Source: Lachnospiraceae bacterium (lineage in GTDB: Bacteria; Bacillota; Clostridia; Lachnospirales; Lachnospiraceae). From it: a stretch of 64,000 nt of DNA. Shown piece by piece: positions 1 to 14,015 of this stretch. Position numbers and translations under genes: made by a program. The DNA lies in the NCBI GenBank assembly GCA_017621815.1, contig JAGASK010000033.1, positions 1-64,000 of the forward strand. Direction: 5' to 3'. How positions within the stretch are numbered: the stretch's first letter is position 1; the number at the start of each line of letters is the position of its first letter. Below the pieces are notes generated by a model. It was given only the letters and a program-made list of their open reading frames with translations, was not told where the DNA came from and searched no databases.

Positions 1-260
1 ACCTCTTTGAAAGTGCCGCTGATATGCAATGTCCGGTTATGAAGCGAGTGATTCTCGTTCAGAAGGAGAGCGCGAAGGAACACCTCAAGGAACTCCGTCG
101 TTTCATGAATGCCGTTTTTCAGATCGTTATAGTTTGCCCTGACAAGTGAATTCCGAAAATACCATGCGTTCTCGGCAAAAATGTCATTCGTTACGTCAAA
201 GCCCAGCGTACGCAGATACTTGATGAAGAATACTGCCGTTGTTCTGGTATTACCTTCATC
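1..260 (-). pseudogene. Fic family protein, C-terminal fragment (broken in the active-site motif, runs off left edge)
   Basis: Reading the minus strand from about 257 to 1 gives an uninterrupted peptide starting EGNTRTTAVFFIKYLRTLGF and continuing through an AENAWYFRNSLVRANYNDL stretch to the window edge. Fic enzymes, which AMPylate or otherwise modify target proteins, carry HPFxxGN(G/T)R. Only the second half (EGNTR) remains, and one codon upstream an in-frame TAA (263-261) closes the frame. The HPFR half and everything N-terminal to it are absent. The adjoining 261-383 is AT-rich and has no gene. I read this as a recombination break through the catalytic motif, so the fragment should be inactive. 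The fragment continues past base 1, so its C-terminus is not visible. The family call is confident from the conserved block after the motif. Confidence 0.75.
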
Positions 261-351
261 TTATGTCAAGTATGGGACAAAATTTTATCAATTCTTCTGT
301 ATCTCATTTTATAATCCACCGTTTCATAATATCCTAATTATAAAATCTTGC

Positions 352-362
352 ATTTATGATAT
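352..362. other. Possible third rlmH-like attachment core
   Basis: The 11-nt string ATTTATGATAT is identical, in the same orientation, to bases 13538-13548 in the 3' end of rlmH. It lies about 90 bp from the point where the Fic gene is cut. The flanking bases do not continue the match. It may be a degenerate attachment site or chance in AT-rich DNA. Confidence 0.25.
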
Positions 363-383
363 ACCTAAGTTTATATGCTCCTC

Positions 384-896
384 TTAGTCAATTGAATATC
401 GATACCCTGGAGACTGAACTAAATCATTATCTGTTATATATGTTTTGTAAACACTTTGTATAGTTAACCTATGTTTTCGTGGATCAAAAGGGGTCTCCAA
501 AATACTTTGGCTCATTCTAATTAACATATTTGAAAACTGGTTCCCTAATGTCATGAAATCACAATCAACAATTACACCGCTTGTATTATTTACCAAAGCT
601 ATGAATAAAGGTAATCCTTTTCCTTCAGGTAAAAACTCTGGCAACTCCGTTTTCATTAAATATGGCGAAAACGGAGCCGCTGCCCATGGATTGTTTTTCG
701 TCTTAACTGCAAAAAAAATCACGTTATTAAATTTCTGACACCAAAAATCATAATGACCACCCAGCTTAAATGACCGTAACTGCAATGGACTCATATTGAA
801 AATTAATGTCGCACTTTCACTCCCCATATCAAACATAATTCCCGTATCCATGCCTTTAAACTGTTTAAGTATTGTCCCTACTTGCAAGATTTGCAT
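384..896 (-). CDS. Hypothetical protein, 170 aa
   Basis: Not recognised. The start at 896 has a good ribosome site (GGAGGG, 5-6 bases before the ATG). The protein is soluble-looking, with no signal peptide or membrane segment, and alternates short hydrophobic strands with loops, including IVDCDFMTLGNQFSNMLIRM near residue 110. It begins 15 bases after the stop of the NucS-like nuclease gene on the same strand, so the two are probably cotranscribed. The local DNA is clearly AT-rich, like the nuclease gene. The context (nuclease, phosphoesterase, recombinase remnant, McrBC) suggests an accessory or defence role, but nothing in the sequence gives a function. Confidence 0.6.
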   Translation of the reverse strand: MQILQVGTILKQFKGMDTGIMFDMGSESATLIFNMSPLQLRSFKLGGHYDFWCQKFNNVIFFAVKTKNNPWAAAPFSPYLMKTELPEFLPEGKGLPLFIALVNNTSGVIVDCDFMTLGNQFSNMLIRMSQSILETPFDPRKHRLTIQSVYKTYITDNDLVQSPGYRYSID

Positions 897-911
897 GATA
901 TCCCTCCATTT

Positions 912-2648
912 TCATATATAAAATAAACCATTTTCACTATTTTTTAATGCTAACGAAAGTTCCTTCATAAATTCCGTCTCTTCCTGTATGAACTGCTCAT
1001 AACTATGTTGCAAGATATCGGAATCTATCGAGCATTCAATATACGAATCACGTAAGAAATCATATTTTTTATAAATCGGCGGCTCATTACAATAATGGAG
1101 AATCTGATAGTTATTTCCATCTAAATGTACAGGGAAATAATTCAGAATTATCTCCTTATACACAGTACATTCAAATCCCATATCATATGCAATTTCTAAA
1201 TTATCCTCACGATAACCATCAAACATAGCACCTATTCGCAAGTGCGCTATTGAATTATCATAATATTTTTCTATTATTTTACTAAACGGCAATGATTTAT
1301 GTGTTTTCTCATAAATACAAAGATATTTTATTTGTTCTATTTTCTTCTCTATTGAGTCAAATGTACGATAAAGCAGAATCGTTCTGGGCAATAACGAGTC
1401 AGGTGTTTTATCTATTGAATACAGATATAAATATTTTAATATAGACATTTGATCTACATATTTTATACAACCATCTGAAGTCTGAATCTGTTGATTCTCG
1501 ACATCTTCCAGAACTTGCAACAGTGGAATTCTCCAGTATGAATTGCATTCCAGATATTGCTTCAAAATTTGCTGTGCATGGTGAACACTAGAACGATTAT
1601 CTGTTTTAAACTTCAAACACACCTTCCGCCTGTCAGTTGTTTCATTTCCAAGTAATTCCTTTTTTATTGTCTCATTTGATAAAAAATGATTTTGCTCATA
1701 AACGGAACCACGAATAAGTTCTTCTATTTTCCATCCACTCTCATTTATATACGCTGATAATTTTGCAGGTTCACCAATCTCAATATAACTCCAATTCATC
1801 CCAAAATCCCATATGTCATGATATAAAGCCTTATTATGCAAATAAAACAGTGGTACCTCTTCCGCAGTTTCATATCCTTCTTTAACAATGATTCTCTGAA
1901 TTTCATAGCTATCTTTAATCATTATCAAAAGTTCATCTTGAGAATGACTTTTAGTGGCAATGCAAAGAAAATAAAGTGGTGATTGATATTCGTCTACTGA
2001 AATACTTATACCAAGATTTTGCTCCATTTGACTCATTGCTTTTTTTTCATTAACTTCAAAATTTTCAGGAGCTTTCAACTTTAGAACTATGTAACTACCA
2101 TACTCTCTTTTTTTATAATAATTTTTAACAAAAGAACACATTTTTTCAACAGTTTTTTCATTCCTACACCAAAGAAAAAGCATACAATCACTAAAAATTC
2201 TACCAGAAGACACTTCTACTTGTTGGATTTTCTCGATTTTTTTAATATCATTTTCATCATTTATGAAAATCTGATAACCTTCCAAATTCATATATGACTG
2301 AGCATAAAAACTGGAAAATGGTATGAGCAATTCGGTCCAATCAGTCGCAACCAGCATCAAACGTATTTCCGATGGAGACATGCCAAATTGCATTTGAAGA
2401 TACTCTGAATATTTAATTAACTCATGGATTGCTTCTCGTGTTGTTGAGCGCCTTGTTTTCAATTCAATTACTACAGCGCATCCATACCTATCTTTTGCCA
2501 GTATATCAATAAATCCTCTGGTTCCATAAGCTGGAGCTTTCAAATAACACTCTTTTTCACATAACACTAATCCATCTTCGATTTTATATAGATTATTACA
2601 AAGTTTATCTCGAATCAAATGTTCATCAATTGTTTTTACATATTTCAT
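912..2648 (-). CDS. NucS-like PD-(D/E)XK nuclease-domain protein, 578 aa
   Basis: Residues 1-145 resemble the endonuclease NucS / DUF91 fold. RGFIDILAKD (D48) is followed by VVIELKTRR (E62-L-K64), the spaced acidic-ExK triad of this nuclease superfamily. The remaining ~430 residues match no family I recognise; they are rich in charged and aromatic residues, lack membrane segments and may form a recognition or effector region. I chose the ATG at 2648 because TTAAGGAG lies about 8 bases upstream and this removes a 38-base overlap with the phosphoesterase gene; an upstream in-frame start at 2699 is less likely. The gene sits between the phosphoesterase (13-base gap) and the 170-aa gene (15-base gap), all on the minus strand. 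DNA-end or branched-DNA cleavage is inference from the fold only. Confidence 0.65.
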   Translation of the reverse strand: MKYVKTIDEHLIRDKLCNNLYKIEDGLVLCEKECYLKAPAYGTRGFIDILAKDRYGCAVVIELKTRRSTTREAIHELIKYSEYLQMQFGMSPSEIRLMLVATDWTELLIPFSSFYAQSYMNLEGYQIFINDENDIKKIEKIQQVEVSSGRIFSDCMLFLWCRNEKTVEKMCSFVKNYYKKREYGSYIVLKLKAPENFEVNEKKAMSQMEQNLGISISVDEYQSPLYFLCIATKSHSQDELLIMIKDSYEIQRIIVKEGYETAEEVPLFYLHNKALYHDIWDFGMNWSYIEIGEPAKLSAYINESGWKIEELIRGSVYEQNHFLSNETIKKELLGNETTDRRKVCLKFKTDNRSSVHHAQQILKQYLECNSYWRIPLLQVLEDVENQQIQTSDGCIKYVDQMSILKYLYLYSIDKTPDSLLPRTILLYRTFDSIEKKIEQIKYLCIYEKTHKSLPFSKIIEKYYDNSIAHLRIGAMFDGYREDNLEIAYDMGFECTVYKEIILNYFPVHLDGNNYQILHYCNEPPIYKKYDFLRDSYIECSIDSDILQHSYEQFIQEETEFMKELSLALKNSENGLFYI

Positions 2649-2661
2649 TTCAGTCTGCTCC

Positions 2662-3375
2662 TTAACTCTCCATTCCACAAAACACCCCAAAATTCTCAAA
2701 CATTATCTCCACCCTCCCCACCTTCTTCTCCGTATGATAATGCCCGCAGTACCACTTCTGGTAATCCAGCCTGTCCTCAATCCCATCCAGCCACTCTTCC
2801 GTAGACTTGTCCACCTTACTCTGGTCCACCCCGGCCATGAACACCTCCACCGGCTCATACTTCAACGGCGTAGTATGGCTCAGCACCACATCCACCTTCC
2901 ACTCCATTTTATCAAGCTGGCTCTCCACATACCGTTTGATCTCATCAGACGGCTGTTCATCCGGCCACCAAGCATATCCATATATCAGCCGGATCATTTT
3001 ATCAATACTGTAAGCACCACCCATGACAATGGTCTGCTTCCCATCTAAATCAAACACTTCCCCATCCTTCGCAAAAAGCAGATTCGGATACTCTTCCTCA
3101 TAATACACAGTACCGCCACGCCACTGTTTTTCCCGATAACTGTCTATGGTCTGCGGTCTCTGCTCATGGTTCCCATGGATGCAGAAAAGCGTAATCGGCA
3201 GGGATTCCAGGAACCTTTTCTTTACACAGTCACGGTTCCATCCGCTAAAGTTAATCCCCGCATCACCTAAAATAATCAATATATCTTCACGGCTTGTCCC
3301 GAATCTCTCACAGAATGTCTCTATGCGCCCGAACTGCCCATGGGTATCTCCTGTTATGTAAATCATTCCATTCAT
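2662..3375 (-). CDS. Calcineurin-like metallophosphoesterase, 237 aa
   Basis: The classic metal-ligand blocks appear in order: GDTHG (9-13), GDAG (37-40), GNHE (67-70), SHTTP (about 165) and GHYH (about 212). These coordinate a dinuclear metal centre that hydrolyses phosphomono- or diesters. The length fits a stand-alone bacterial enzyme. The protein has no signal peptide and should be cytoplasmic. It is the first gene of a tight minus-strand group with the NucS-like nuclease and the 170-aa protein. The coding DNA is visibly more GC-rich than those two genes, hinting at a separate origin. The substrate cannot be told from sequence. Related phosphoesterases occur both as housekeeping enzymes and in mobile-element cargo. 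Confidence 0.85.
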   Translation of the reverse strand: MNGMIYITGDTHGQFGRIETFCERFGTSREDILIILGDAGINFSGWNRDCVKKRFLESLPITLFCIHGNHEQRPQTIDSYREKQWRGGTVYYEEEYPNLLFAKDGEVFDLDGKQTIVMGGAYSIDKMIRLIYGYAWWPDEQPSDEIKRYVESQLDKMEWKVDVVLSHTTPLKYEPVEVFMAGVDQSKVDKSTEEWLDGIEDRLDYQKWYCGHYHTEKKVGRVEIMFENFGVFCGMES

Positions 3376-3435
3376 CCTTTCCGGATGCCTGCCCTCCGGC
3401 AGACATCCTCATTATACCATCACTATCCCTGCATT

Positions 3436-4894
3436 TCACCTAAAATCTTTTCGTAAAATCTTTTCGTAAACATCCTGATGCTTCCAGGTTACTTCCAGCC
3501 TGTCTTCACCCATCACTTTTGCACTCTCAATCAAAGATGCCATCACCGCTTTATCAAACTGTTCCAGATGCAGATATTTCTTTATTCCAAATGCTTCACC
3601 ATATTTCCGCTGGCTGTCATCTTCCACAAGCTCCTGTGCTTCCAGTTCCGCTGCTGCCGCAGATAACTCCTGCCGCCGCAGATCAGACGCTTTTTTCCGT
3701 TCCAGGAACATCTCCCGTGTGAGCTTTCCTTCCTTATAGCTTTCGTAATCAGAGACTTTCGCCTCTTCCAGCCGCCTGATCTCTGCCCTCATGCTCCCGA
3801 CGTCCTTGCCTTTCTTTGGCTTATTCTTCTATTCTTTCAGCATCTGTTCTGCCGTCACCAGAAGCTGTGCCTGCGTCCGTACAAGCTCTACCAGTGTCTG
3901 CTCCGCCATATCTTTCCGTATCTTTACCTCACTGCATGGGCTGTCCCGGTGCATCCTCCCCGTTAGGCAGTACATAAAACCGTCCTGCAGCTTCCTCGGT
4001 CTGAGTGTCAGCCCGCAGTGCGGGCATACGATCACGGAAAAATTCTTCTTCGTGGATGGGTTCTTTTTCTTTCCCTGCACCACGTCCCTAATATTGGCAT
4101 TTGCCCGGTCAAATTCCTCCTGTGTCACGATTCCCTCATGGGTATTTCTGACCACGATCCACTGGGATTTATCCACGCCCACCTGACGTTTGGAATCAAA
4201 GCTCTCGTATACTTTCTTGTGTCCCACCATATACCCAGCATACCGTTCATCACGGATGAGCTTTGCCACCATAGAGGTATTCCAGCCGCCCTTTTTCCCG
4301 TCCGGGAACCAGCCTCGTGTGCAGTCCCTCCGCTGTTTATATATAGCTGCTGTCGGCACGTTTTCCTCATTCAGTATCTTGACAACCTCTTTCCTCTGCA
4401 TCCCATCCCCGACCATCAGAAAAATCCTCCGGACGATTGCCGCTGCTTCTTCATCTATCACCAGCTTATGCACATCCTTTGGGTCCTTCTGATATCCGAA
4501 AATCCCATAGGGACCGATATATTCCCCACGTTTTATCCGTGTATTCACCGCACTTTTCACTTTATTGGAAAGGTCCCTGCTATAAAGGTTGTAGACCAGA
4601 TTCTTAAAAGCCACATCCCCCCGCCTGTCTGCCCGATAAAGGAATCGCTGTCATAACCGTCATTCACAGAAATACCCGGATGCCTAGGAAGGGGAATACC
4701 TGCTCCAGCAGGTTCCCGACTTCCACATAATTTCTCCCAAGCCGTGACAGGTCCTTCACCACAATGCTGCCGATTTTTCCCATCCGGCACTGCTCCACCA
4801 TCTTTTGGAAACCAGGGCGTTCAAAGTTCCGACCCGTGTACCCATCGTCTATGTAAACGCTGTCTTTGATACAAGGGAAATCCCCAATAAACAA
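3436..4894 (-). pseudogene. Large serine recombinase, decayed
   Basis: Three collinear pieces rebuild one site-specific serine recombinase. 4894-4664 holds the rear of the resolvase domain (DDGYTGRNFERPGF, VKDLSRLGRNY). 4664-3829 holds the recombinase domain and zinc ribbon (RIKRGEYIGPYGIFGY, CPHCGLTL, ending CS at the last ligand). 3792-3436 is the C-terminal coiled coil. The breaks are a 1-base loss near 4671-4673 (IRVFL-stop versus expected IR-ISVND), a frameshift in the C6 run 4617-4622, and an in-frame TAG at 3831-3829 within LKE-stop-KNKPKK. The N-terminus with the catalytic serine is missing upstream of 4894. Such enzymes move integrative elements, including SCC-type and Tn4451-like ones. 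This copy cannot be active. Confidence 0.85.
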
Positions 4895-4936
4895 GGGCTT
4901 TCAGCGGTTTTGCGCCGCCGGAAGCCCTCTTTTTTT
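4894..4936 (+). terminator. Hairpin plus T-run beside the recombinase remnant
   Basis: AGGGCTT (4894-4900) pairs with AAGCCCT (4922-4928), with an inner CGG/CCG pairing, followed by a run of seven T. It has the form of an intrinsic terminator on the plus strand, but no plus-strand gene precedes it, so it is probably a relic of the lost part of the element. It marks where the recombinase homology stops. Confidence 0.45.
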
Positions 4937-5019
4937 ATGCTCATTTTCAGTTTTCCGATGACTTTGCCCGTGAGAATTTGAACCAGGCTGAAACCTTGAT
5001 TTGAACCCTCCCGATAAAA

Positions 5020-5070
5020 AATCAAAAGGTATAGGCAAAATCAAAATGTGTGAGGAATAATCAAATAGTA
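5020..5070. repeat. Three short direct repeats, ATCAAA-type, 19-20 bp period
   Basis: ATCAAAAGGTATAG (from 5021), ATCAAAATGTGTGAG (from 5040) and ATCAAATAGTATAG (from 5060) are spaced 19 and 20 bp apart, about two helical turns. They lie in the gene-free stretch 4937-5076, between the recombinase remnant and the end of the zinc-ribbon gene. They could be protein-binding iterons of a former element or simple AT-rich coincidence. Confidence 0.35.
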
Positions 5071-5076
5071 TAGACA

Positions 5077-5286
5077 TTATGCCGTAGTGTGGTTATTGCC
5101 GTCAGAATTGTTATTTACAAGCGCAACCGCACTAAGTGCTGTCATCGCAAGACCGCCGACAATTCCACCAACCTGTCCCACCTTATTCCGTCCTTCAAGT
5201 ACGCACCTTCTGCAAAAGGGCAGCTTTTCATCAAGGAGCAATTTCCCACAAGATTTGCAACGGCATTCTTTCTCTTCATTATTCAT
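5077..5286 (-). CDS. Zinc-ribbon small membrane protein, 69 aa
   Basis: The N-terminal half has two CxxC pairs (CKSCGKLL, FCRRC) forming a probable zinc ribbon. A glycine/alanine-rich hydrophobic segment follows (VGGIVGGLAMTALSAVAL), then a polar tail NNNSDGNNH. I chose the ATG at 5286, which overlaps the stop of the 358-aa gene by 8 bases (ATGAATAA), a typical coupled start. An in-frame start at 5304 would lie inside that gene. The membrane segment suggests it anchors something at the membrane. It is the last gene of the McrB-to-here minus-strand run. Family not recognised. Confidence 0.6.
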   Translation of the reverse strand: MNNEEKECRCKSCGKLLLDEKLPFCRRCVLEGRNKVGQVGGIVGGLAMTALSAVALVNNNSDGNNHTTA

Positions 5287-6355
5287 TTTCCGAACCCTCC
5301 ACATCTATGTAAAAGACATCCTTATCTTTTTGCGTCAGCATGGTTTCATAGGAATCAATAACTCCAAGCATCTGCTTGGGCTTCTCAAGCCAGAAGTCAA
5401 CATTCTCCTCGTCATAAGGATAGTTTTTATGGATTAACTCTAAAGCTGTGTACTTTCCGTCTCCAAGTTTCCGCTCTGCCAACGTTTGAAGCTGATAGCG
5501 ATATTCACCGAGAATACGATTTGCATCGTCCGCTTTGCCACGGTAATTAAACAGATACACCCTCAACCCAACATACCGCGGGATCATCTGCATATCCTCG
5601 TTGATATATGAGAGAATTGAGTCAATGGCCTTAACGCTTGCGAAGGGCCCTTTTATCTCCGCTAAAGCCTTAACCTGCGCATTAACATCTGAATATAAGT
5701 CGGTGAGACCTTCCATTAAATATGTGTCTGCCTCTTTTAAATATAGTTCTCGTTCCTCTTCTGATGCCGTGGCTGCGAGCATTATTTTATCTCTTGCGTA
5801 AATGAACTTATTACTCAAAGCCTCACGTCGAGTAAAATCAATCATACCTTTTACATCTCTGCCGATGTCTTCAATTTGAGAAGATATCCTTTGAAGAGAT
5901 GCCTGCATAGATAATGTTGAAATGTCTGAAAGAACGCTTGAAGGATTTACCGCCTTCTTCAATGTGAAGAATTTTACCAAGTGTTCATTCTCGTCCAATA
6001 TGGCAGGACGAAGATTGCCCGCAACCTCTCTGGACTGCCCAACATGATAGATTCCTTCTTTAAGTCCATCAATAATGTCCTGGCTGAAATGAGAATAGTC
6101 TGCAACAAGCATTCCCATTTTAGATATGTCGAAACCGCCTTTAATAGCGGCAGCTATTTCACCGACGAAACCCTCAATATTATGGAACACCTCCCACGCT
6201 GTATCAGCTCTCATTTCAGTCTCAATCTTTCCGATGAACACTTCAAAGAAGTCAGACATAGCCAGCAGATCGGTTCCTTTTTTATCTTCCTCTTCAGTAA
6301 AGATGTTCAGCAGCTCGCCCTTACCGGCTTCTATGATTTCATTGTTCTCTGCCAT
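5279..6355 (-). CDS. Hypothetical protein, 358 aa, alpha-helical
   Basis: Not recognised. The start at 6355 follows a strong ribosome site (AAGGAGAACGTGT-ATG). The protein is acidic and mostly helical, with no signal peptide. It has a glycine-containing amphipathic stretch (VGEIAAAIKGGFDISKMG, around 65-82) and a later heptad-like helix (ISTLSMQASLQRISSQIEDI), so it may be a scaffold or coiled-coil adaptor. Its stop overlaps the start of the zinc-ribbon membrane gene, implying coupled translation. It lies 82 bases downstream of the ADP-ribosylglycohydrolase gene in the same direction. The conserved gene packing with McrBC is the main clue to a defence-island role, which is inference. Confidence 0.6.
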   Translation of the reverse strand: MAENNEIIEAGKGELLNIFTEEEDKKGTDLLAMSDFFEVFIGKIETEMRADTAWEVFHNIEGFVGEIAAAIKGGFDISKMGMLVADYSHFSQDIIDGLKEGIYHVGQSREVAGNLRPAILDENEHLVKFFTLKKAVNPSSVLSDISTLSMQASLQRISSQIEDIGRDVKGMIDFTRREALSNKFIYARDKIMLAATASEEERELYLKEADTYLMEGLTDLYSDVNAQVKALAEIKGPFASVKAIDSILSYINEDMQMIPRYVGLRVYLFNYRGKADDANRILGEYRYQLQTLAERKLGDGKYTALELIHKNYPYDEENVDFWLEKPKQMLGVIDSYETMLTQKDKDVFYIDVEGSENE

Positions 6356-6437
6356 ACACGTTCTCCTTTAGGATTATTACTTGTTTGCTACTCCCTGTTT
6401 GATGCAACAAGCCCATTCAGGCTAAATACCCCCACAA

Positions 6438-7295
6438 TCAGTCTCTTGAAATAAACTTCTTCCACCTTCTGAGTACGTCCTTCAGCGGCTCATCCAGATA
6501 GGAATAGGCCTTGTTCTTAATCCAGTCAGGGATGCCGTATGCCGCCTCTGCTATGCTGCCTGTGATTGCAGCAAGGGTATCGCTATCACCTCCGAGAGAA
6601 ATAGCATTTCGTATTGCATCCTCAAAGTCTGTGCTTTCCAAAAATGCGATAATAGCTTGCGGAACAGTATTCTGGCAGATCTCATTGAAGCGGTATGTCG
6701 GACGGATTTCATCCAGGGTGTGGGAAAGGTCATATCCGTATTCCTGCTCAATATGCTCTTTGATGCGCTTTTTACATTCAGTTGGATCATCATTGATAGG
6801 CTGCTCATAGTCGCCATAATAGCCACCAAAATAATAACGGCACATGAAGATTGCATCGGCTGTTGCCATAGCGCCTTTGATGCCCTCCGGGTGGTTATGT
6901 GTTACCTCTGCAGACATCTGCGCACCAGCTCTGCCATTGGACGGCCACATACCTGTTCTTGCACAAAAACCACAATCCATCACCCATGCGCAGGGTGAAA
7001 CACGCATCGCAGAACCGTTGCTGTAACTATTGTACGGTTCACGGTCATCGGAAAATACCCATGTACCAAATCTACCGCCATATCCGGCATCCGGATACAT
7101 TCTGCCATATTTCTTCATTGCATCGATGAAGTCATCCCTTTGCCCACCGTTCATGATGGCTTCTGCAACAGCACAGGTCATGACGGTATCATCTGTAAAA
7201 AAACAGTCGTCACGGAACAAAGGAAAATCCTTCGTTTTTATATTGTGCCGCTCGTAGACAGAGCCTACGATATCGCCGACTATTGCTCCAAGCAT
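6438..7295 (-). CDS. ADP-ribosylglycohydrolase family protein, 285 aa
   Basis: Belongs to the DraG / ADP-ribosylglycohydrolase family, which removes ADP-ribose from proteins or small molecules using a binuclear Mg centre. The signature blocks are present: GAIVGDIVGSVYE (3-15), FTDDTVMT (33-40, metal ligands) and SLGGDSDTLAAITGSIAEA near residue 232. The length matches the family. A ribosome site AAAGGTGG precedes the start. It follows the 87-aa zinc protein by 3 bases and precedes the 358-aa unknown, so it is part of the McrBC-led unit. No ADP-ribosyltransferase partner is seen nearby. The hydrolase could reverse a self- or phage-directed modification, but that is speculation. Confidence 0.9.
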   Translation of the reverse strand: MLGAIVGDIVGSVYERHNIKTKDFPLFRDDCFFTDDTVMTCAVAEAIMNGGQRDDFIDAMKKYGRMYPDAGYGGRFGTWVFSDDREPYNSYSNGSAMRVSPCAWVMDCGFCARTGMWPSNGRAGAQMSAEVTHNHPEGIKGAMATADAIFMCRYYFGGYYGDYEQPINDDPTECKKRIKEHIEQEYGYDLSHTLDEIRPTYRFNEICQNTVPQAIIAFLESTDFEDAIRNAISLGGDSDTLAAITGSIAEAAYGIPDWIKNKAYSYLDEPLKDVLRRWKKFISRD

Positions 7296-7298
7296 ATA

Positions 7299-7562
7299 TC
7301 AAAACCACCTTTCTCGCATCGCTCCCAAGAATTCATCTGTAAACGGATACCCAGCACTTTCCGGCAAAATTGCATCTATGCCACAGTATGGGCATATAGC
7401 TGTCGCTTCTTCGCCTTCATCCAGTTCAGGACACCATTCCACGATCTCAGACGGTGAAAATACCTTGAGACAATAGAAGCAGCCGCATTTACTGTCTTCC
7501 CTAAGTATATCCTTATTGAATCTTGCCGCTTCATGTGCGGCGGTTAAGTCATATTTTTCCAT
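7299..7562 (-). CDS. Small zinc-ribbon cytoplasmic protein, 87 aa
   Basis: Carries CGCFYCLKVF and CPYCGIDAILPES, two cysteine pairs spaced as in a zinc ribbon, plus a WCPELDEGEEA linker. Small proteins of this type occur widely in gut bacteria, often labelled cytoplasmic protein, without known function. The ATG at 7562 has GAGG about 6 bases upstream; the alternative at 7574 is a TTG. It sits 17 bases after mcrC and 3 bases before the glycohydrolase gene, so all three are almost certainly on one transcript. Confidence 0.7.
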   Translation of the reverse strand: MEKYDLTAAHEAARFNKDILREDSKCGCFYCLKVFSPSEIVEWCPELDEGEEATAICPYCGIDAILPESAGYPFTDEFLGAMRERWF

Positions 7563-7579
7563 ATTCTGCCTCAAACATA

Positions 7580-8899
7580 TTACGTCATTGCAAATTCCTG
7601 AATAAACTCCTGCTCATGAGTTTTCATCTTTGCGACAAAGCCCGCGTAGTCAGCTACTTGTACAGGAATTTTCAAACCGTGTTTTGTAATGCTGATATCA
7701 TCACGCGGCATGACATTCGATTCGTAGGTTGATCCGCGATTCATCCACAGTTTAAGATCATCCGAGCCTTCCGCTTCTGGATAAAGGTAGTACCCTGCTT
7801 TGGCATCAAAGCGGAACATATATGCCAACACCTGCAGGTAATCTCTGTTTCCGATATTATCAAGAGGCTTGTACTTGGCGTCTGCTATTATTCTTACCTC
7901 ATTATTACGGCTGATAAAATCAGGATATATTAACCCAATATTGCCTGCAAATAGCCGCTGGGCTCCTTTGCCGCCCTTGTTCATCGGATGATAAAAAATA
8001 TCCTCGATGAGAGAATTAACATATTCCTCCCACAACCATGCTCCGTCAAACAAAATGCCGTATATCTGTCTCGAACCAAGACCGATCTGATGTTTCTGAT
8101 GCCGGAGAATCAAAAGGCACAATCTCTGAAGAGCCAGGTACTCACGGAAATACGCATGACGAACCGCATTCTTTTTATTCTGTTCGATAATCCGTTGCCT
8201 GTCATATGGCTCATATCCCGGAGTGGCGTCAATAACAAATTTCACCTCATCCTTTACTTTGACAAGGAGATTATTCCCATAGGGTTTTCTTTTGATAAAT
8301 TCGATGGTATGGCGCACCAGTTCCATGAGGCTGTTATCGTAAGAAAACTCCCTCTGTGAGTACGCAACACTCCCGGTGAACGGCGTGTTCTTCTCTATGT
8401 GTCTTGCGATGTCGATAGCACCTTTCAAATTCCCGTCATTGTATCTGTGACGGATGTACTTCTTAAACAAACCTTTCCTCATTGCTGTTTTCAGATAATA
8501 CGGAAAGAGGAAAAGCAGAAAATTAAACAGCCGATTATCCTGATTGGCGTCGGAATCCAAGTCCACAATGTTCGGAAAGTCCATCACTCTGTCAAGGAGA
8601 TATTGAAAAAAGAAATCATCCTCCTCGCCGCCAAAACGTGATTCAATAATAAGCCGTTCATCCCCGCAGCCAAGAAATCCCATCACATTGCCTGACCGAT
8701 AAGTATCGTTAACACTCTGGATAATCATCTGATCCCGCGTTATGCCCTCGGCATCCTTCACGATTTCCGGAAACACAAACACACCTTCCCGTTCAAATTG
8801 CTCTAACGTCTTATCGGCAATCTTGCCCACAAGGGTTCCTATATCAGAAAAGGCATCTTTTTTATGTTGTGAATTATCCTTGATCTTGAGCAGTTTCAT
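7580..8899 (-). CDS. mcrC: McrC-like restriction subunit, 439 aa
   Basis: McrC is the nuclease partner of McrB in modification-dependent restriction. The C-terminal third contains the PD-(D/E)XK core YPDFISRNNEVRIIADAKYK, with D327 and D340-A-K342. The N-terminal part is the expected McrB-contacting region. The start ATG at 8899 lies inside the 3' end of mcrB (26-base overlap), typical of coupled McrBC pairs. Length is close to other family members. The protein should act in the cytoplasm as part of a GTP-driven McrB ring, cutting methylated or otherwise modified DNA. Specificity cannot be predicted. Confidence 0.88.
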   Translation of the reverse strand: MKLLKIKDNSQHKKDAFSDIGTLVGKIADKTLEQFEREGVFVFPEIVKDAEGITRDQMIIQSVNDTYRSGNVMGFLGCGDERLIIESRFGGEEDDFFFQYLLDRVMDFPNIVDLDSDANQDNRLFNFLLFLFPYYLKTAMRKGLFKKYIRHRYNDGNLKGAIDIARHIEKNTPFTGSVAYSQREFSYDNSLMELVRHTIEFIKRKPYGNNLLVKVKDEVKFVIDATPGYEPYDRQRIIEQNKKNAVRHAYFREYLALQRLCLLILRHQKHQIGLGSRQIYGILFDGAWLWEEYVNSLIEDIFYHPMNKGGKGAQRLFAGNIGLIYPDFISRNNEVRIIADAKYKPLDNIGNRDYLQVLAYMFRFDAKAGYYLYPEAEGSDDLKLWMNRGSTYESNVMPRDDISITKHGLKIPVQVADYAGFVAKMKTHEQEFIQEFAMT

Positions 8900-10970
8900 T
8901 CACATCACCCTCAACAGGCTTTTTATAACCGTATGCTTTCGCAAAACGATTCATAAGCCCTTCCTCATCATACATTCCTTGGATGTATTCCTGCAGGAGC
9001 GGTTGCAGATAATCTGTCCAAAGCTGGTCAAAATCAAGAGTCTTCAGCTTCAAAAAGTATGATGCGCCGATTTGGTAATTCTCGTTCAAGTCCTCAACAC
9101 TTGCAATTTCCTTATTGAGCGCAGCCATTCTCTTGATAGCCTCGGCCTCCAGTTCTTCATTTTCCAAATAAGCCAGCATTTCAAGGCGCTCATCCGCTCG
9201 GAGTTCCACGAATCGGAAACGCCTACGCATAGCAAAATCAAAGCTGTCCACAGAACGATCGATATCGTTCATGGTACCAATAATGTATACGTTCTCCGGG
9301 ATATAAAACTTCTCATCCGGGTCAGAATGCAGATTGGAATACTGCGTGGAAATTTCTCCGACTCTGCCGCGATACCCAGGGTCTATTGCAAAGAACAGTT
9401 CGCCGAATATCTTTGAAATTTCACCACGGTTAATTTCATCGATAATGAAGATGTATTTTTTCAATTCTTCCTGCTTTGCCTTTGCTTTAAAAGCAGCGCT
9501 TTTCTTTGCCCTGATAGCCTTGTAGATTGCGAAGTCATAGGAATACGCCTGTGTTGCAAACGACTTCCCGAAGAAGGTCGTGATATCCTTAATCTTGTCG
9601 AACTTCTGCCCGGACTCCAGCATCTTCCTGACCTCGTCCAGATTCAAGGTGAGCTTATTGGCGGTAGCGTTTCCGGGTATGGAGATAGTAATGTGTTTGT
9701 CATCCACGCTGGTAATGGTGAACTCATTGCCATTGATCGTCTTAAAGGTATCAACGCCAAGTTCAATATTGGAGAAGAACTCTGTCATTGATTCCTGTGC
9801 GGAGATTTCCTTCTCTATTGTTTCCTTGGACTTTTGGGAATCCTCATAGTTCTTTCTTGCACGGGCAACGAACTTCTTGAAAATGCCATCCTGCAGTTCA
9901 AAGCCCATAGTACCGTCATCATTTACTTTCGGTCTCAAGCCCTCAACAAAATCAGAGTAATCATAGCTTGGATGGAACTGAACAAACTCCACCTGCTTCT
10001 TCTGTTCATCGGTGAGCAGCGTATAATCATCAAAGTACCCGTTACTGATAATATCCGTAGCAATTTCCTTTGCGAGGTAAGACTTGCCGGTACCCGGTGC
10101 GCCTCTGAAAATCAGATTCTTCGAAGCGATCAGCATAGAGGAGAAGGGATTTCTGTATCCCTTAAACTGCTGAACAAGTTCCTCCTGTGCAGCTGCCTCT
10201 GTCTCCGCAGCCTCGGTTTCCTTTTCATCCTTCTCACGGTAGGTAAGGATAAATTGATCCCCTGGCTCTCCGAAACGCTTCAAGCATTCCTGAACGAAAA
10301 TAATCGTGGAGAAGATATTCCAGCAATAGATAACGAACCATCTGCCGTTATCGTAGCCATACGTCAGGTACTCTATAGTGTTGCGATGCTTCTTGAACTC
10401 ATCCACGCTGGAGAAAATTCCGCAAATCATATCGCTGTCAGGATTGTATTTACAGATAGGAAAGTTCTCCTTGTCCTCAACTGACATCCCGGATATCTGC
10501 TTTTCAAAAACCTGAAAAGCAATACGAGGCATCGTCTGATTGGAGTTTCTTCTTTCGCCTTTACTATAGGAACGCTTTATCACATCGCCATTTGCCTTCT
10601 TGAAAAAGACATCAAGCGGTTTATAGTTATCACCGAGACTCAGGTTGTCCATCATGAACCGCTCGTCAGTTGATTCAACACTCTCGGCAGTAACAGACAA
10701 TTCAAACTTTTCCTGCTGCTTTATCTCAATCGTAAAGCCCTGTCCTTCCAGATAGCGCTTTGCCTCCACAGCATCAAAGCCTTTCGTGGAAATATCCGTA
10801 CCGTTTGCTATATGGTCAGCCACGGCCACCACATACTTCGGCGGATACCTCTTTCCATCCTCTGTCACGAGTTCATACTTCGTGCTCTGATTATGGAAAG
10901 GCACTCCGTTCTCATCGATGTACTTTAGGGCATCGATGATATCCTGCTTTTTGATTTTTGGTATAGCCAT
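8874..10970 (-). CDS. mcrB: McrB-like AAA+ GTPase, 698 aa
   Basis: Walker A GAPGTGKS at 290-297, Walker B FIIDEINRG at 508-516 and the GTMNDIDRS block at 565-573, followed by FDFAMRRRFRF, are the McrB-type AAA+ motifs; McrB uses GTP to translocate DNA for McrC cleavage. Residues 1-85 form a separate N-terminal domain (IDALKYIDENGVPF, KRYPPKYVVAVADHI) that resembles the head domain of McrA/McrB-type proteins and probably reads DNA. Residues 100-250 form a second accessory region. An acidic Glu/Ala linker (248-265) joins these to the motor. It is encoded 27 bases after the metallopeptidase remnant and overlaps mcrC. This is likely the recognition and motor subunit of the system. Confidence 0.88.
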   Translation of the reverse strand: MAIPKIKKQDIIDALKYIDENGVPFHNQSTKYELVTEDGKRYPPKYVVAVADHIANGTDISTKGFDAVEAKRYLEGQGFTIEIKQQEKFELSVTAESVESTDERFMMDNLSLGDNYKPLDVFFKKANGDVIKRSYSKGERRNSNQTMPRIAFQVFEKQISGMSVEDKENFPICKYNPDSDMICGIFSSVDEFKKHRNTIEYLTYGYDNGRWFVIYCWNIFSTIIFVQECLKRFGEPGDQFILTYREKDEKETEAAETEAAAQEELVQQFKGYRNPFSSMLIASKNLIFRGAPGTGKSYLAKEIATDIISNGYFDDYTLLTDEQKKQVEFVQFHPSYDYSDFVEGLRPKVNDDGTMGFELQDGIFKKFVARARKNYEDSQKSKETIEKEISAQESMTEFFSNIELGVDTFKTINGNEFTITSVDDKHITISIPGNATANKLTLNLDEVRKMLESGQKFDKIKDITTFFGKSFATQAYSYDFAIYKAIRAKKSAAFKAKAKQEELKKYIFIIDEINRGEISKIFGELFFAIDPGYRGRVGEISTQYSNLHSDPDEKFYIPENVYIIGTMNDIDRSVDSFDFAMRRRFRFVELRADERLEMLAYLENEELEAEAIKRMAALNKEIASVEDLNENYQIGASYFLKLKTLDFDQLWTDYLQPLLQEYIQGMYDEEGLMNRFAKAYGYKKPVEGDVNETAQDQG

Positions 10971-10996
10971 GCCGCACCTCCGTTAATTCGTTTTCT

Positions 10997-11200
10997 TTAT
11001 ATAATTTCCATCAATTTCTTATTTACCTTCAGCCACTCCTGTTCATCCTCATAGGTAGGCAGTACGGTTTTCACCCTCGCCCAGAATGCAGGACTGTGGT
11101 TTTTATAGGTAATGTGACTCAGTTCATGTACCACAACATAATCAATCACAGAAAGAGGGCACATGATAAGCCGCCATGCAAAATTCAGAGTGCAAACCCA
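10997..11200 (-). pseudogene. YgjP/SprT-like zinc metallopeptidase, C-terminal remnant
   Basis: One minus-strand frame reads TLNFAWRLIMCPLSVIDYVV, then VHELSHITYKNHSPAFW and a C-terminal tail ending at the TAA 10997-10999. HELSH with a downstream H in NHSPAFW is the zinc site of the YgjP (DUF45) family, whose genes often accompany restriction systems. The usual preceding WGSC-type block is replaced at about 11198 by unrelated sequence that forms the end of the Nudix-like gene in another frame. The N-terminal half is missing, so this is a deletion remnant whose 3' end still leads into mcrB. Confidence 0.75.
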
Positions 11201-11679
11201 TTAATTTTACTGGGTTTCTCTAACCTTGTCCCAATTATAACATCAGAATCTCCGAATACATGGATCTGCCACAGTCTGGATACGAATACAGCAAGGTGAT
11301 GGATAATCTCATCCATCGAGAGGTTTTTATAGGAAAACTTCTTCTCCTCCGAGAAATCATAGTCCAGCGTCGCACACGGGAAAAATATCTCTCCAACTGC
11401 AATAAGATGGTCTATCTCAATTTGGGCATGAAGCTCCTCTTCAAATTCTCTCTTTAGAGCTTCCTGCGTTGTCTCCATACTTGATATATGCCCACCGATA
11501 ATAGCTTTTGTATTCGCCTTCACTGCTGTGAAAAACGCATTGCTGACCGGATACAAATGACCGTCTCTCTCTCCTGGCATCAAAAAGAGGCATCCGATCA
11601 TTATATAATACTGCATATGCAAAACAGAACACTTTATATGCTCTGCCTGTAACTGTTCTTCTTTGCTTCCATCAATCAT
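11185..11679 (-). CDS. Nudix-box protein, 164 aa
   Basis: The segment IIGGHISSMETTQEALKREF followed by EEELHAQI fits the Nudix box (G-x5-E-x7-REUxEE), which binds Mg and hydrolyses nucleoside-diphosphate-linked compounds. The first 30 residues and the region after the box fit the family poorly, so part of the frame may be altered. Its last codons overlap the metallopeptidase remnant in another frame, so the C-terminus has probably been set by the deletion junction. The start at 11679 has only a weak AGGAA close to the ATG. Substrate unknown; it may be a degraded gene. Confidence 0.45.
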   Translation of the reverse strand: MIDGSKEEQLQAEHIKCSVLHMQYYIMIGCLFLMPGERDGHLYPVSNAFFTAVKANTKAIIGGHISSMETTQEALKREFEEELHAQIEIDHLIAVGEIFFPCATLDYDFSEEKKFSYKNLSMDEIIHHLAVFVSRLWQIHVFGDSDVIIGTRLEKPSKINGFAL

Positions 11680-11717
11680 TTCCTGACACTAGCGGCTTCT
11701 TTCCGGCAGGATTCTTT

Positions 11718-12407
11718 TCAGTAGTTTTTCATCCTTATTTCAAATAACCCATCATAAAAAAGCTCTTTCACAACTTGCTCTTCCAACTCATATTTTTCCA
11801 CTGCCAGCTTTTTAAGCATTTCATATATTGCAGATGTTTTTTCTTCCCCTTGCATCTGAAAGTCCTTCTCATTATGAATGCCAAGACCTTCCAAAAGTTC
11901 CGCGGCAGCCACAGCCGCTTCCTGCTTTTGGACAAGCTTCTTTAATTCTGCCTCTGAGCCCAAATAAATATACTTTTGTTCAGGTATATATAATTGTTTA
12001 TGGTCTGTAATTTCAAACAGTTCGCTTATCATGGACGGAATCCCCTTACAAAACTGTATTAAGCTAAGCTCATGATGTCCGCGCATAGCATGGTCAACAG
12101 GCTGTGTTTTGTAAGTCGTGAAAAAGCACAAAACTTTTGATGGACATTTTTGTATTGAAGTATGCTGAATTTTTCGGTTCTTGCTACATGCAATCGCTTC
12201 ATACTCCTGACCCATGGGTATATCTTTCTCTGCGTATTGATGATGAAAATACATGCTGTTCGCCGCAAATTTATTTTTTTGATAAGCGTCATAGGCTGTT
12301 TGTGAAAATATCCCAAACTCTTTACAATTTTTTTCAATCTCAGGAATTAACTCCTGTCTAACAAATGCCGGACTAAACCACGCCCATAAAACTAAATATT
12401 CTCCCAT
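11718..12407 (-). CDS. Hypothetical protein, 229 aa
   Basis: Not recognised. The N-terminus is aromatic (YLVLWAWFSPAFVRQEL). A middle region contains several His/Cys residues (YFHHQYAEKD, CFFTTYKTQP, MRGHHELSL), and the C-terminal 80 residues are Glu/Lys-rich and predicted helical (KLVQKQEAAVAAAELLEGL). There is no signal peptide or membrane segment. It lies in AT-rich accessory DNA, 38 bases upstream of the Nudix-like gene on the same strand. Downstream reading frames agree with a complete, unbroken gene. Confidence 0.5.
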   Translation of the reverse strand: MGEYLVLWAWFSPAFVRQELIPEIEKNCKEFGIFSQTAYDAYQKNKFAANSMYFHHQYAEKDIPMGQEYEAIACSKNRKIQHTSIQKCPSKVLCFFTTYKTQPVDHAMRGHHELSLIQFCKGIPSMISELFEITDHKQLYIPEQKYIYLGSEAELKKLVQKQEAAVAAAELLEGLGIHNEKDFQMQGEEKTSAIYEMLKKLAVEKYELEEQVVKELFYDGLFEIRMKNY

Positions 12408-12487
12408 ATTATTTTATCTCTTTGTTACACCATAATGTTAAAATACGTTCTTAAAATTTTTTCTTATTTTCCATAATCTCATATACT

Positions 12488-12631
12488 TCAATATCTCCTC
12501 AAACTCCAGCTCTTTTCATATTCTACCACTTCCATACTCCTGATACCATGTCCTCCCCTCGGAATCTGAATATCTGTATTCCCTTTTATACAGATATATC
12601 CATCCACAGATGCACAATTATTCCGCTCAAA
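12488..12631 (-). pseudogene. Short open fragment, possible gene remnant
   Basis: Within the otherwise gene-free 12408-12723, one minus-strand frame stays open for 47 codons with protein-like composition (NNCASVDGYICIKGNTDIQI, then PRGGHGIRSMEVVEYEKSW) and ends at TGA 12488-12490. It opens directly after an in-frame TGA with no start codon or ribosome site. It may be the 3' end of a lost gene cut by recombination near the 12661 repeat. The rest of the stretch shows nothing further. Confidence 0.25.
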
Positions 12632-12660
12632 TCACTTCTGCACACTTTCTTCCTGTTTTC

Positions 12661-12678
12661 TTACTTATGATATGGTTC
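12661..12678 (-). repeat. rlmH-end direct repeat (candidate attachment site copy)
   Basis: On the minus strand this reads GAACCATATCATAAGTAA, codons E-P-Y-H-K-stop, matching 16 of 18 bases of the rlmH terminus at 13536-13553, with both differences at third codon positions. It resembles the SCC attachment consensus ending TATCATAA. No gene uses these codons here. Confidence 0.6.
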
Positions 12679-12723
12679 CACATGTCATACCCAGGTGCGT
12701 AACTGAACCAAACAGAAATCAGG

Positions 12724-12933
12724 TCAGCAGAGCTTACCATAATATTCCTTCAGATAATTTTTTATAACTTGCGGTGTGACGGGAATTTCTGTATCAAAAA
12801 GAGGATATTCTAAATGTACTTTTTTGTCATCAGATATAATATGCACTCTATGCCCATTATTGTTTACTCGCACATACCAATAATAGATTGCGCCCTCATA
12901 TTCTATTTTACGCTTATTTTTCCTGAATACCAT
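12724..12933 (-). CDS. Hypothetical protein, 69 aa
   Basis: A small basic protein beginning MVFRKNKRKIEYEGAIYYWY, with a likely beta-rich core (HRVHIISDDKKVHLEYPLF) and a short C-terminal helix (VIKNYLKEYYGKL). Not assigned to a family. It lies 12 bases after the Imm42-like gene and is probably cotranscribed. The ribosome site is weak. It is one of only two genes between the two rlmH-end repeats. Confidence 0.5.
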   Translation of the reverse strand: MVFRKNKRKIEYEGAIYYWYVRVNNNGHRVHIISDDKKVHLEYPLFDTEIPVTPQVIKNYLKEYYGKLC

Positions 12934-12945
12934 GTCTCATTCCGC

Positions 12946-13440
12946 TCAACCGCAAACTACACTATCATAAAAAATAGTGATTTTTGATTTTATTTCAGCA
13001 TATTCTTGTATAGAGATTTCTGTACAATCAACCAAATTTATGTTTTCAAATTTCCATCTGCCAACAAGTATTTTGACATTTATACCATTTGATATGATAA
13101 AAAAATTATAGCCCGAATCACTAATTTCATGGAAAGGAATAAGGTATCTATAATCATTATCATTTTCCAAATCATCGGGAAATGTAATATCAGCCATATA
13201 CCGGAACAATTCTAAATCACTTTTATTGTACAATTCTTTATCAATTGAAGGATTCATAAAAGCTGAATTAGAATTGAGAACATCAGTAAATTCACTATTA
13301 AAAGTAGTTGTACGCATTTCTTTAGGATATATTCCATCATTAACAATAACAAACATTATTCCATTTTTCCAGTAATCTACTTCCCAATCCTGTATTCTTT
13401 CTATCAGGAAAGCAAATTTCAATGGATTTCCAATTATCAT
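12946..13440 (-). CDS. Imm42-like immunity protein, 164 aa
   Basis: The opening MIIGNPLKFAFLIERI, the central RTTTFNSEF and the C-terminal YLIPFHEISDSGYNFFII plus GRWKFENI pattern resemble immunity protein family 42, which protects cells against polymorphic toxins delivered between bacteria. The match is from memory of the family, not from a search. It is soluble and acidic with a clear ribosome site (TAGGAGAAGAA-ATG). No toxin gene is visible beside it. It lies between the two rlmH-end repeats, so it looks like captured cargo or an orphan immunity gene. Confidence 0.5.
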   Translation of the reverse strand: MIIGNPLKFAFLIERIQDWEVDYWKNGIMFVIVNDGIYPKEMRTTTFNSEFTDVLNSNSAFMNPSIDKELYNKSDLELFRYMADITFPDDLENDNDYRYLIPFHEISDSGYNFFIISNGINVKILVGRWKFENINLVDCTEISIQEYAEIKSKITIFYDSVVCG

Positions 13441-13535
13441 TTCTTCTCCTAAATTCCTATTGTTGCATCACTTTCAACGCATAAAAATAATCATTCTATC
13501 TAAAGCATTTCCTGCCCACTTCCTAACTTTCGCCC

Positions 13536-13553
13536 TTATTTATGATATGGCTC
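13536..13553 (-). repeat. rlmH 3' end, candidate integration site
   Basis: GAGCCATATCATAAATAA forms the last codons of rlmH. SCC-type elements in staphylococci integrate at exactly this part of rlmH. A near copy in the same orientation at 12661 brackets 875 bp holding two small genes. Confidence 0.55.
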
Positions 13554-14015
13554 CCCTGAAATAATCCGGTATCCCCTGTAAATCTGCTCCAGCAAAATCA
13601 CCCGCATAAGCTGATGTGGAAACGTCATATCAGAAAAACTGATTTTTTCATCCGCCCTTGCGGAAACACTGCTGTGTAAGCCCAGGGAACCGCCAATCAC
13701 AAACTGAATATGGCTTCTTCCATAGGTTGCCAGTTTTTCAATGGTATTTGCAAAAGCAACTGAATTCATCTTTTTTCCCAATATTTCAAGGGTAACAACA
13801 AAGGCGTCCTCTTTGATGTATCTCAAAATCCGGAACGCCTCTTTTTCCTTAATCTGTTCTTCCATAGCTTCACTTGCATTGTCAGGAGTTTTTTCATCCT
13901 GAACTTCTATTATTTCCAGCCTGCAATATTTTGAAAGCCGCTTTTCATATTCCGCTATGGCATCCCTGAAGTATTTTTCCTTCACTTTTCCCACACAGAT
14001 AATTGTTATTTTCAT
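13536..14015 (-). CDS. rlmH: 23S rRNA (pseudouridine-1915-N3)-methyltransferase RlmH, 159 aa
   Basis: A SPOUT methyltransferase that methylates pseudouridine 1915 in helix 69 of 23S rRNA on assembled ribosomes. The full-length family pattern is present: ICVGKVKEKYFRDAIAEY at the N-terminus, FVIGGSLGLHSSV (the SAM-binding knot, about 104-116), FPHQLMRVILLEQIYRGYRI and the invariant tail GEPYHK. Its start overlaps the stop of the zinc-ribbon membrane gene by 4 bases (ATGA). It is the last core gene before the accessory block, and its 3' end is the probable insertion site. Confidence 0.97.
   Translation of the reverse strand: MKITIICVGKVKEKYFRDAIAEYEKRLSKYCRLEIIEVQDEKTPDNASEAMEEQIKEKEAFRILRYIKEDAFVVTLEILGKKMNSVAFANTIEKLATYGRSHIQFVIGGSLGLHSSVSARADEKISFSDMTFPHQLMRVILLEQIYRGYRIISGEPYHK

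Follow-up and report, generated by a model that had tools for sequence, protein, structure and literature searches.

A recombinase-less 875-bp unit behind rlmH in a Lachnospiraceae genome, probably a pseudo-SCC-like mini-cassette

We examined a 64,000-nucleotide stretch of DNA (the window) from a Lachnospiraceae bacterium, namely positions 1 to 64,000 of contig C21 (JAGASK010000033.1) of a 52-contig draft genome (GCA_017621815.1); the left end of the window is also the end of the contig. The window carries rlmH (13536..14015, minus strand; PF02590, 205.7 bits), whose 3' end forms an attachment site, and directly behind it lies an 875-bp unit without a recombinase gene (12661..13535, minus strand), bounded by two copies of the rlmH terminus. 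We read this unit, with a probability of about 80%, as a mini-cassette without ccr that resembles the pseudo-elements of the staphylococcal cassette chromosome (SCC) and occupies an rlmH hotspot used by an SCC-type branch in the Lachnospirales. Because no ccr recombinase gene was found, the 875-bp unit is not classed as SCC. A sequence-only reading had proposed an SCC-like layout at rlmH in Clostridia, and this proposal is supported, with corrections, by empty sites in congeners, by the arm of the 12661 copy and by Ccr-branch enzymes in relatives.

The last six codons of rlmH, E-P-Y-H-K-stop (core 1; 13536..13553, minus strand), recur on the same strand at 12661..12678 (core 2) with an identity of 16/18, and both differences are synonymous (GAG/GAA and AAA/AAG). 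A search of the window with the last 18 bases of rlmH at up to three mismatches returned two matches compared to 0.12 expected. The degenerate codon pattern GARCCNTAYCAYAARTRR, to which core 2 shows 0 mismatches, was found twice in the whole window at up to one mismatch compared to 0.01 expected, and two copies were obtained in none of 100 shuffled windows. It had been claimed from the sequence that the terminus recurs in the same orientation and that its codons are preserved outside a gene; both points were borne out, and in-frame translation upstream of the 12661 copy gave no RlmH peptide and two stops. We also considered whether the copy could be a piece of an rlmH gene that had been duplicated or acquired, next to genes brought in by unrelated events, an origin that would fit the kept codons and the existence of a second, divergent rlmH in one congener (49% identical, on the 4.6-kb contig G011:C37; L066). 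The two stops and the missing peptide led us to reject 12661 as a duplicated rlmH end, and its flank matches site copies of other genomes that are not part of rlmH; such an origin is regarded as very improbable. No tRNA, tmRNA or Rfam RNA was detected in the window as an insertion target.

The sequence around the core was described with a site model of 55 positions, for which the training set consisted of 41 copies with a GAA distal arm, all from other genomes and not classed as rlmH ends by a rough sorting rule (at least one copy, L157, was assigned to rlmH elsewhere, and L201 is uncertain). In these training copies, the core is surrounded by a long, imperfect dyad. The 25-bp proximal arm adjoining the 12661 core (12679..12703, minus strand) had no role in finding that copy, and the model scored it at 12.3, in the top 4e-5 of window positions. 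The distal arm after the rlmH stop (GGGCGAAAGTTA; 13524..13535, minus strand) was similarly element-like, in the top 8e-6 of window positions, a rank that is partly circular. The arm before a third copy, located at C49:3200 on a second contig described below, outscored every window position. From these arm scores, the rlmH end looks like attL, the 12661 copy like attR and C49:3200 like an internal site. A further core match had been pointed out at 352-362. Its 11-nt identity is real; we rejected it as an element end on the basis of four mismatches to the codon pattern over the 18-bp site (a tolerance at which the 19.4-kb insert described below holds 11 matches compared to 6.4 expected), a score of -31.8 under the model of real sites and unremarkable arms.

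We then compared the rlmH downstream region across 36 same-genus genomes, consisting of 35 congeners and the window genome (congener G330 was left out). It was found that rlmH is joined to a core gene within 260 bp of its stop in 31 of the 36, as expected of empty sites; this comparison is between species, the nearest congener having an RlmH that is 79% identical. The first core gene was pdp in 17 of these genomes and yqfC, with no pdp found between, in 14. The five exceptions were the window genome, G020 (pdp at 3453), G025 (pdp at 1484), G013 (yqfC at 7585) and G015, whose contig stops 1.6 kb after rlmH. Within the genus, a second exact copy downstream of rlmH was present only in the window genome, G015 and G020, at spacings of 875, 974 and 1,182 bp, respectively. 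The genes between the copies differ: a 5'-3' exonuclease-domain protein is encoded in G015, a PD-(D/E)XK-family protein in G020 and, in the window, an Imm42-family protein of 164 aa (12946..13440, minus strand; PF15593, 113.5 bits) beside a 69-aa open reading frame (ORF) without a family match (12724..12933, minus strand). No relative of the Imm42 gene was found among the compared site-bearing stretches of other genomes. We also rebuilt the model without this genus (40 sites) and took the highest score in the 9 kb behind rlmH, or less at the contig ends of G006 and G015. The window reached 32.3, G015 40.5 and G020 36.5, and none of the other 33 genomes exceeded -2.9, a split that partly repeats the exact-copy result for the same three genomes.

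The 875-bp unit, the only one in the window with sites on both sides, stands at the front of a larger insert. Window positions 1-101 are the exact reverse complement of C49:1-101, the 101-nt sequence occurs in the window genome at these two contig ends only, and C49 holds pdp, yqfC, yqfD and phoH, the genes that follow rlmH in congeners. This draft-contig overlap is strong evidence, short of proof, that C21 and C49 are adjacent. Across the joined contigs, 19,407 bp separate the rlmH stop from the pdp start; the insert does not stop at 352-362 but continues into C49. Behind the cassette come about 18.5 kb of further accessory DNA, including the third site at C49:3200 (one mismatch, then GGGTGAAGG), and then pdp.

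To assess how widespread such sites are, we searched a sample of 295 genomes from the order. Genomes with a match mostly held one copy, with up to eight, compared to 0 or 1 for the reversed pattern. By hand count, 36 genomes possessed more than one copy, amounting to 84 extra copies against 11 matches of the reversed control, and the surroundings of the extra copies were inspected in part of these 36 genomes. In a further search, the control pattern matched twice in G027. Some extra copies are stray, such as those inside a glycosyltransferase-like ORF (G015:C9) and inside another ORF (G029:C127). Copies are often arranged in same-strand series. In G219, rlmH is followed by single-gene units of 1014, 988 and 908 bp with APH-family, GNAT and YaaA genes; this array (L129, G219:C1:705000-724000) has four exact copies about 1 kb apart at 5887-8814, forming tandem single-gene cassettes. 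Between consecutive exact copies we recorded 47 segments from 32 stretches with a median of 2,526 bp, which is no census, as the stretches were chosen for having several copies. Of these segments, 21 were shorter than 2 kb; in 13 of the 21 the only ORF pointed away from rlmH, and in 18 every ORF did. Over all bounded segments, 159 of 190 ORFs pointed away from rlmH. A nuclease-gene unit was common to G020 and G293, which belong to different genera; its two versions share 87.6% DNA identity over the 1,043 bp that lead up to the site, compared to 66% for an alignment of the two rlmH genes.

Across a collection of species genomes, the core followed by GGGCGAA was found in 78 stretches, of which 47 were titled Lachnospiraceae (hand count) and 6 Paenibacillus, the remainder being from Cohnella, Rossellomorea, assorted Clostridia and two actinobacterial records; the chance expectation of about 0.1 is our own arithmetic and not a control. 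In 58 of these stretches a copy coincided with the end of rlmH itself, and in the other 20 none was so assigned, one of the 20 (L201) being uncertain. No stretch with the core and GGGCGAA was found in viral contigs. In Paenibacillus solani (L163, NZ_LIUT01000008.1), exact copies at 585, 2700 and 5226 fall within 5 kb, an arrangement in which small cassettes of this kind are also recognized in Paenibacillus. In two further stretches, L073 (10962, G036:C10) and L147 (2972, G061:C1), the first copy covered is found some 105 bp behind a HAD-family-like gene and not behind rlmH, making this gene end a possible secondary chromosomal port in G036 and G061. It was also noted that L081 (G055:C11:861000-880000) has a reverse-strand copy at 9475, about 570 bp after an smpB-like ORF; this might be an rlmH-type site near where ssrA, another known island port, could lie.

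Site-flanked units of 8-21 kb that carry Ccr-branch serine recombinases were found in other Lachnospirales when the earlier suggestion to look for ccr-like enzymes beside rlmH was taken up: these genes lie at rlmH or within 3 kb of copies of its end. In G332, G331 and G036, a large serine recombinase of Ccr type by homology lies inside a unit bounded by rlmH ends. In G036, a 19.7-kb unit contains two adjacent large serine recombinases and, in addition, DUF1643, RadC and a D5-type primase. Behind rlmH, G332 has two units of about 12 kb in tandem; by Pfam, the first has DUF1643, a recombinase, a SymE-like gene and PDDEXK_2 slightly below its cut-off, and the second has similar ORFs with the recombinase split. 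An 837-aa protein without a family match is also encoded in G332. Of the G331 units, which measure 9.4 and 8.1 kb, the latter has an open recombinase, and G041 and G133 each possess one large serine recombinase overlapping the rlmH end. In L227, L229, L233 and L234 (from G332, G331 and G333), the gene that directly precedes the site is repeatedly of the PD-(D/E)XK nuclease family and often follows a SymE-like gene.

In a CcrB-model survey of the 295 genomes that scored up to four candidates per genome, the four best matches were all within 3 kb of an exact copy. In a tree of 40 recombinases, the seven att-linked enzymes fell on one branch (support 98/98; none of 500 shuffles was as low), a set in which G331 and G332 were found by similarity to another member and near pairs are included. 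When the G332 enzyme was compared to a plasmid collection, three staphylococcal records ranked best, at 35.6% identity over 92% of the query, and a Paenibacillus piece aligned at 42.9% over half. Within the genus, a Ccr-type search of 37 genomes (E 1e-25) gave matches in 19, the strongest (31-34% identity, above 200 bits) in 7; none of the matches listed lies near rlmH, the nearest of them that shares its contig being about 197 kb distant (G019).

The accessory genes and the serine recombinase remnant had been noted on the 3' side of rlmH, and the window ORFs and family matches agree. The remnant itself is a broken large serine recombinase in three ORFs (3436-4894, minus strand) and is no evidence for ccr: the largest piece scores 28.1 bits with CcrB compared to 39.6 bits with XisF, and we rejected it as the ccr of the window element. 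This score is one reason to ask whether the rlmH-pdp gap is a general hotspot into which other integrases, for example tyrosine enzymes of integrative and conjugative or mobilizable elements, or insertion-sequence events place DNA, with the site copy reflecting such an enzyme. Tyrosine integrases of that kind use rlmH in streptococci. The inserts without second sites in G013 and G025 would also fit. Against it, the recombinases overlapping rlmH or lying within 3 kb of its copies form one serine clade, a statement made with no tyrosine-integrase search, and the dyad around the core matches the SCC and Enterococcus cassette chromosome (ECC) description given in PMC6222049. We consider a general hotspot of this kind unlikely.

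The remaining accessory DNA in the window (1..12660), inside which no bounding sites were resolved, encodes a 229-aa ORF (11718-12407), a NUDIX ORF (11185-11679), McrB (8874-10970), McrC (7580-8899), an ADP-ribosylglycohydrolase (6438-7295), a phosphoesterase (2662-3375) and a NucS_C protein (912-2699), among others. In the last, a protein of 595 aa, the NucS C-terminal nuclease domain lies close to the start, and the long rest of the sequence matches no family; its PADLOC matches were all weak, and PADLOC gave partial or weak matches for three of the ten proteins submitted. Relatives of several ORFs were encountered close to site copies elsewhere: that of 11718-12407 in L216 (82% over 155 aa, about 1.1 kb from a copy), that of the NUDIX ORF in G015 (83% over 36 aa, 52 nt) and that of C49:2044-2550 in L152 (45% over 153 aa, 50 nt).

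Among the features that characterize SCC and ECC, the window unit shows insertion at the rlmH 3' end with rlmH left intact, flanking rlmH-end repeats at both ends and, for the dyad, a proximal arm at 12661 and a distal arm at rlmH. ECC, as described in PMC6222049, comprises elements of 21-78 kb with ccrAB that target rlmH and have repeats of about 50 bp, inverted repeats in attR and several attR copies. The Lachnospirales elements resemble it in their use of rlmH, the CcrAB-type pair in G036, repeats of about 50 bp with inverted repeats and several attR copies; the window unit differs in being smaller than 1 kb, lacking ccrAB and belonging to a different bacterial order. SCC and pseudo-SCC are likewise approached by insertion at the rlmH 3' end, the site core TATCATAA (as in PMC6222049), composite arrays of several copies, DUF1643 in the related units of G332 and G036 and Ccr-branch recombinases in relatives. 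The differences are the 875-bp size, the lack of ccr, recombinases in relatives that score well below the staphylococcal model cut-offs, and the distal arm, which is GGGCGAAA in Lachnospirales. In staphylococcal SCC, the distal arm is GCGGTTTTT.

SCC-like islands with PolA-SSB pairs in further Bacillota, as described in PMC10061031, share rlmH targeting, large serine recombinases downstream of rlmH, rlmH-end repeats and tandem composite arrays; its C. difficile and C. perfringens examples sit in ssrA, and mini-cassettes are absent from the description in its section 3.1. In layout only, the Lachnospirales cassettes are analogous to integron cassettes, being short, often single-gene, in one orientation and stacked behind a fixed site (G219), whereas they differ in their serine-type enzymes and dyad sites. 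Our literature searches, in which subscription papers were thinly covered and which leave priority not firm, found no Lachnospirales case of rlmH or a cassette chromosome. Elements of SCC-like type targeting rlmH are known from other Bacillota, and the Lachnospirales branch and the mini-cassettes look new.

Several observations weigh against the mini-cassette interpretation. The outer arm at 12661 does not fit the site model (-11.0), and the empty sites of G001 (13.7) and G011 (9.3) also have fairly element-like arms. The distal-arm evidence at rlmH, and distal-arm scores in general, are partly circular because GGGCGAA was picked after inspecting the window, G015 and G020 and was required in the search that supplied much of the training set; the proximal arm is free of this circularity. 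The C21-C49 link is an assembly overlap within a draft genome, and some 2.7 kb from C49:3200 to pdp contain no right-hand site. The inserts after rlmH in G013 (7.6 kb, L064) and G025 (1.5 kb, L050) have no second recognizable site. With the NCBIfam CcrB model, the site-linked recombinases reach 248-441 bits, which is less than the equivalog cut-off of 900. Searches of the window genome for a Ccr-type gene, with the CcrB model (E 1e-40; four of five candidates scored) and with the G041 enzyme as query (1e-25), found none, and for this reason we infer the mobility of the window unit.

The mechanism we propose is that the rlmH 3' end would serve as attB for a Lachnospirales branch of SCC/ECC-type elements, and that a Ccr-branch large serine recombinase would recombine a roughly 50-bp dyad site (near CGCACTTAGGTATGTTATGGA-GAACCATATCATAAGTAA-GGGCGAAA) with it. 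Because the core encodes E-P-Y-H-K-stop, rlmH would stay intact, a copy would remain at the far end, and the unit might be able to excise. As the 875-bp unit lacks a recombinase, either insertion in trans or a deletion remnant may be proposed; the most likely route, at about even odds, appears to be insertion in trans by an enzyme of the Ccr branch that was later lost. A full SCC-like element that inserted once and decayed by deletion, with nothing mobilized in trans, is a somewhat less probable but substantial contender. It would accommodate the broken recombinase, the long site-free stretch, the eroded outer arm at 12661 and the site-less inserts of G013 and G025; in addition, the site-adjoining gene of full Lachnospiraceae elements encodes the same kind of nuclease as the mini-units of G020 and G293, as deletion would leave. 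However, short units whose sites are intact are found repeatedly, each time with another single gene (exonuclease, APH-family, GNAT, YaaA and phosphoesterase), and the tandem stacking in G219 is poorly explained by deletion alone.

If the mini-cassette reading holds, gut Clostridia would share the SCC/ECC mode of gene gain known from methicillin resistance and would do so with a recombinase clade distinct from those known, and the site model could find such units, many of about 1 kb, in draft genomes. We tentatively suggest, as a broader idea that we think doubtful at present, that gut Lachnospirales may possess an integron-like system built on serine-recombinase chemistry, in which recombinase-less cassettes with dyads of about 50 bp are stacked behind rlmH and exchanged in trans by Ccr-branch enzymes on 8-21-kb elements. 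The mini-cassette reading itself would give a route, open to testing, for small accessory genes, such as those for immunity proteins, nucleases and acetyltransferases, to enter a single chromosomal port although they bring no recombinase.

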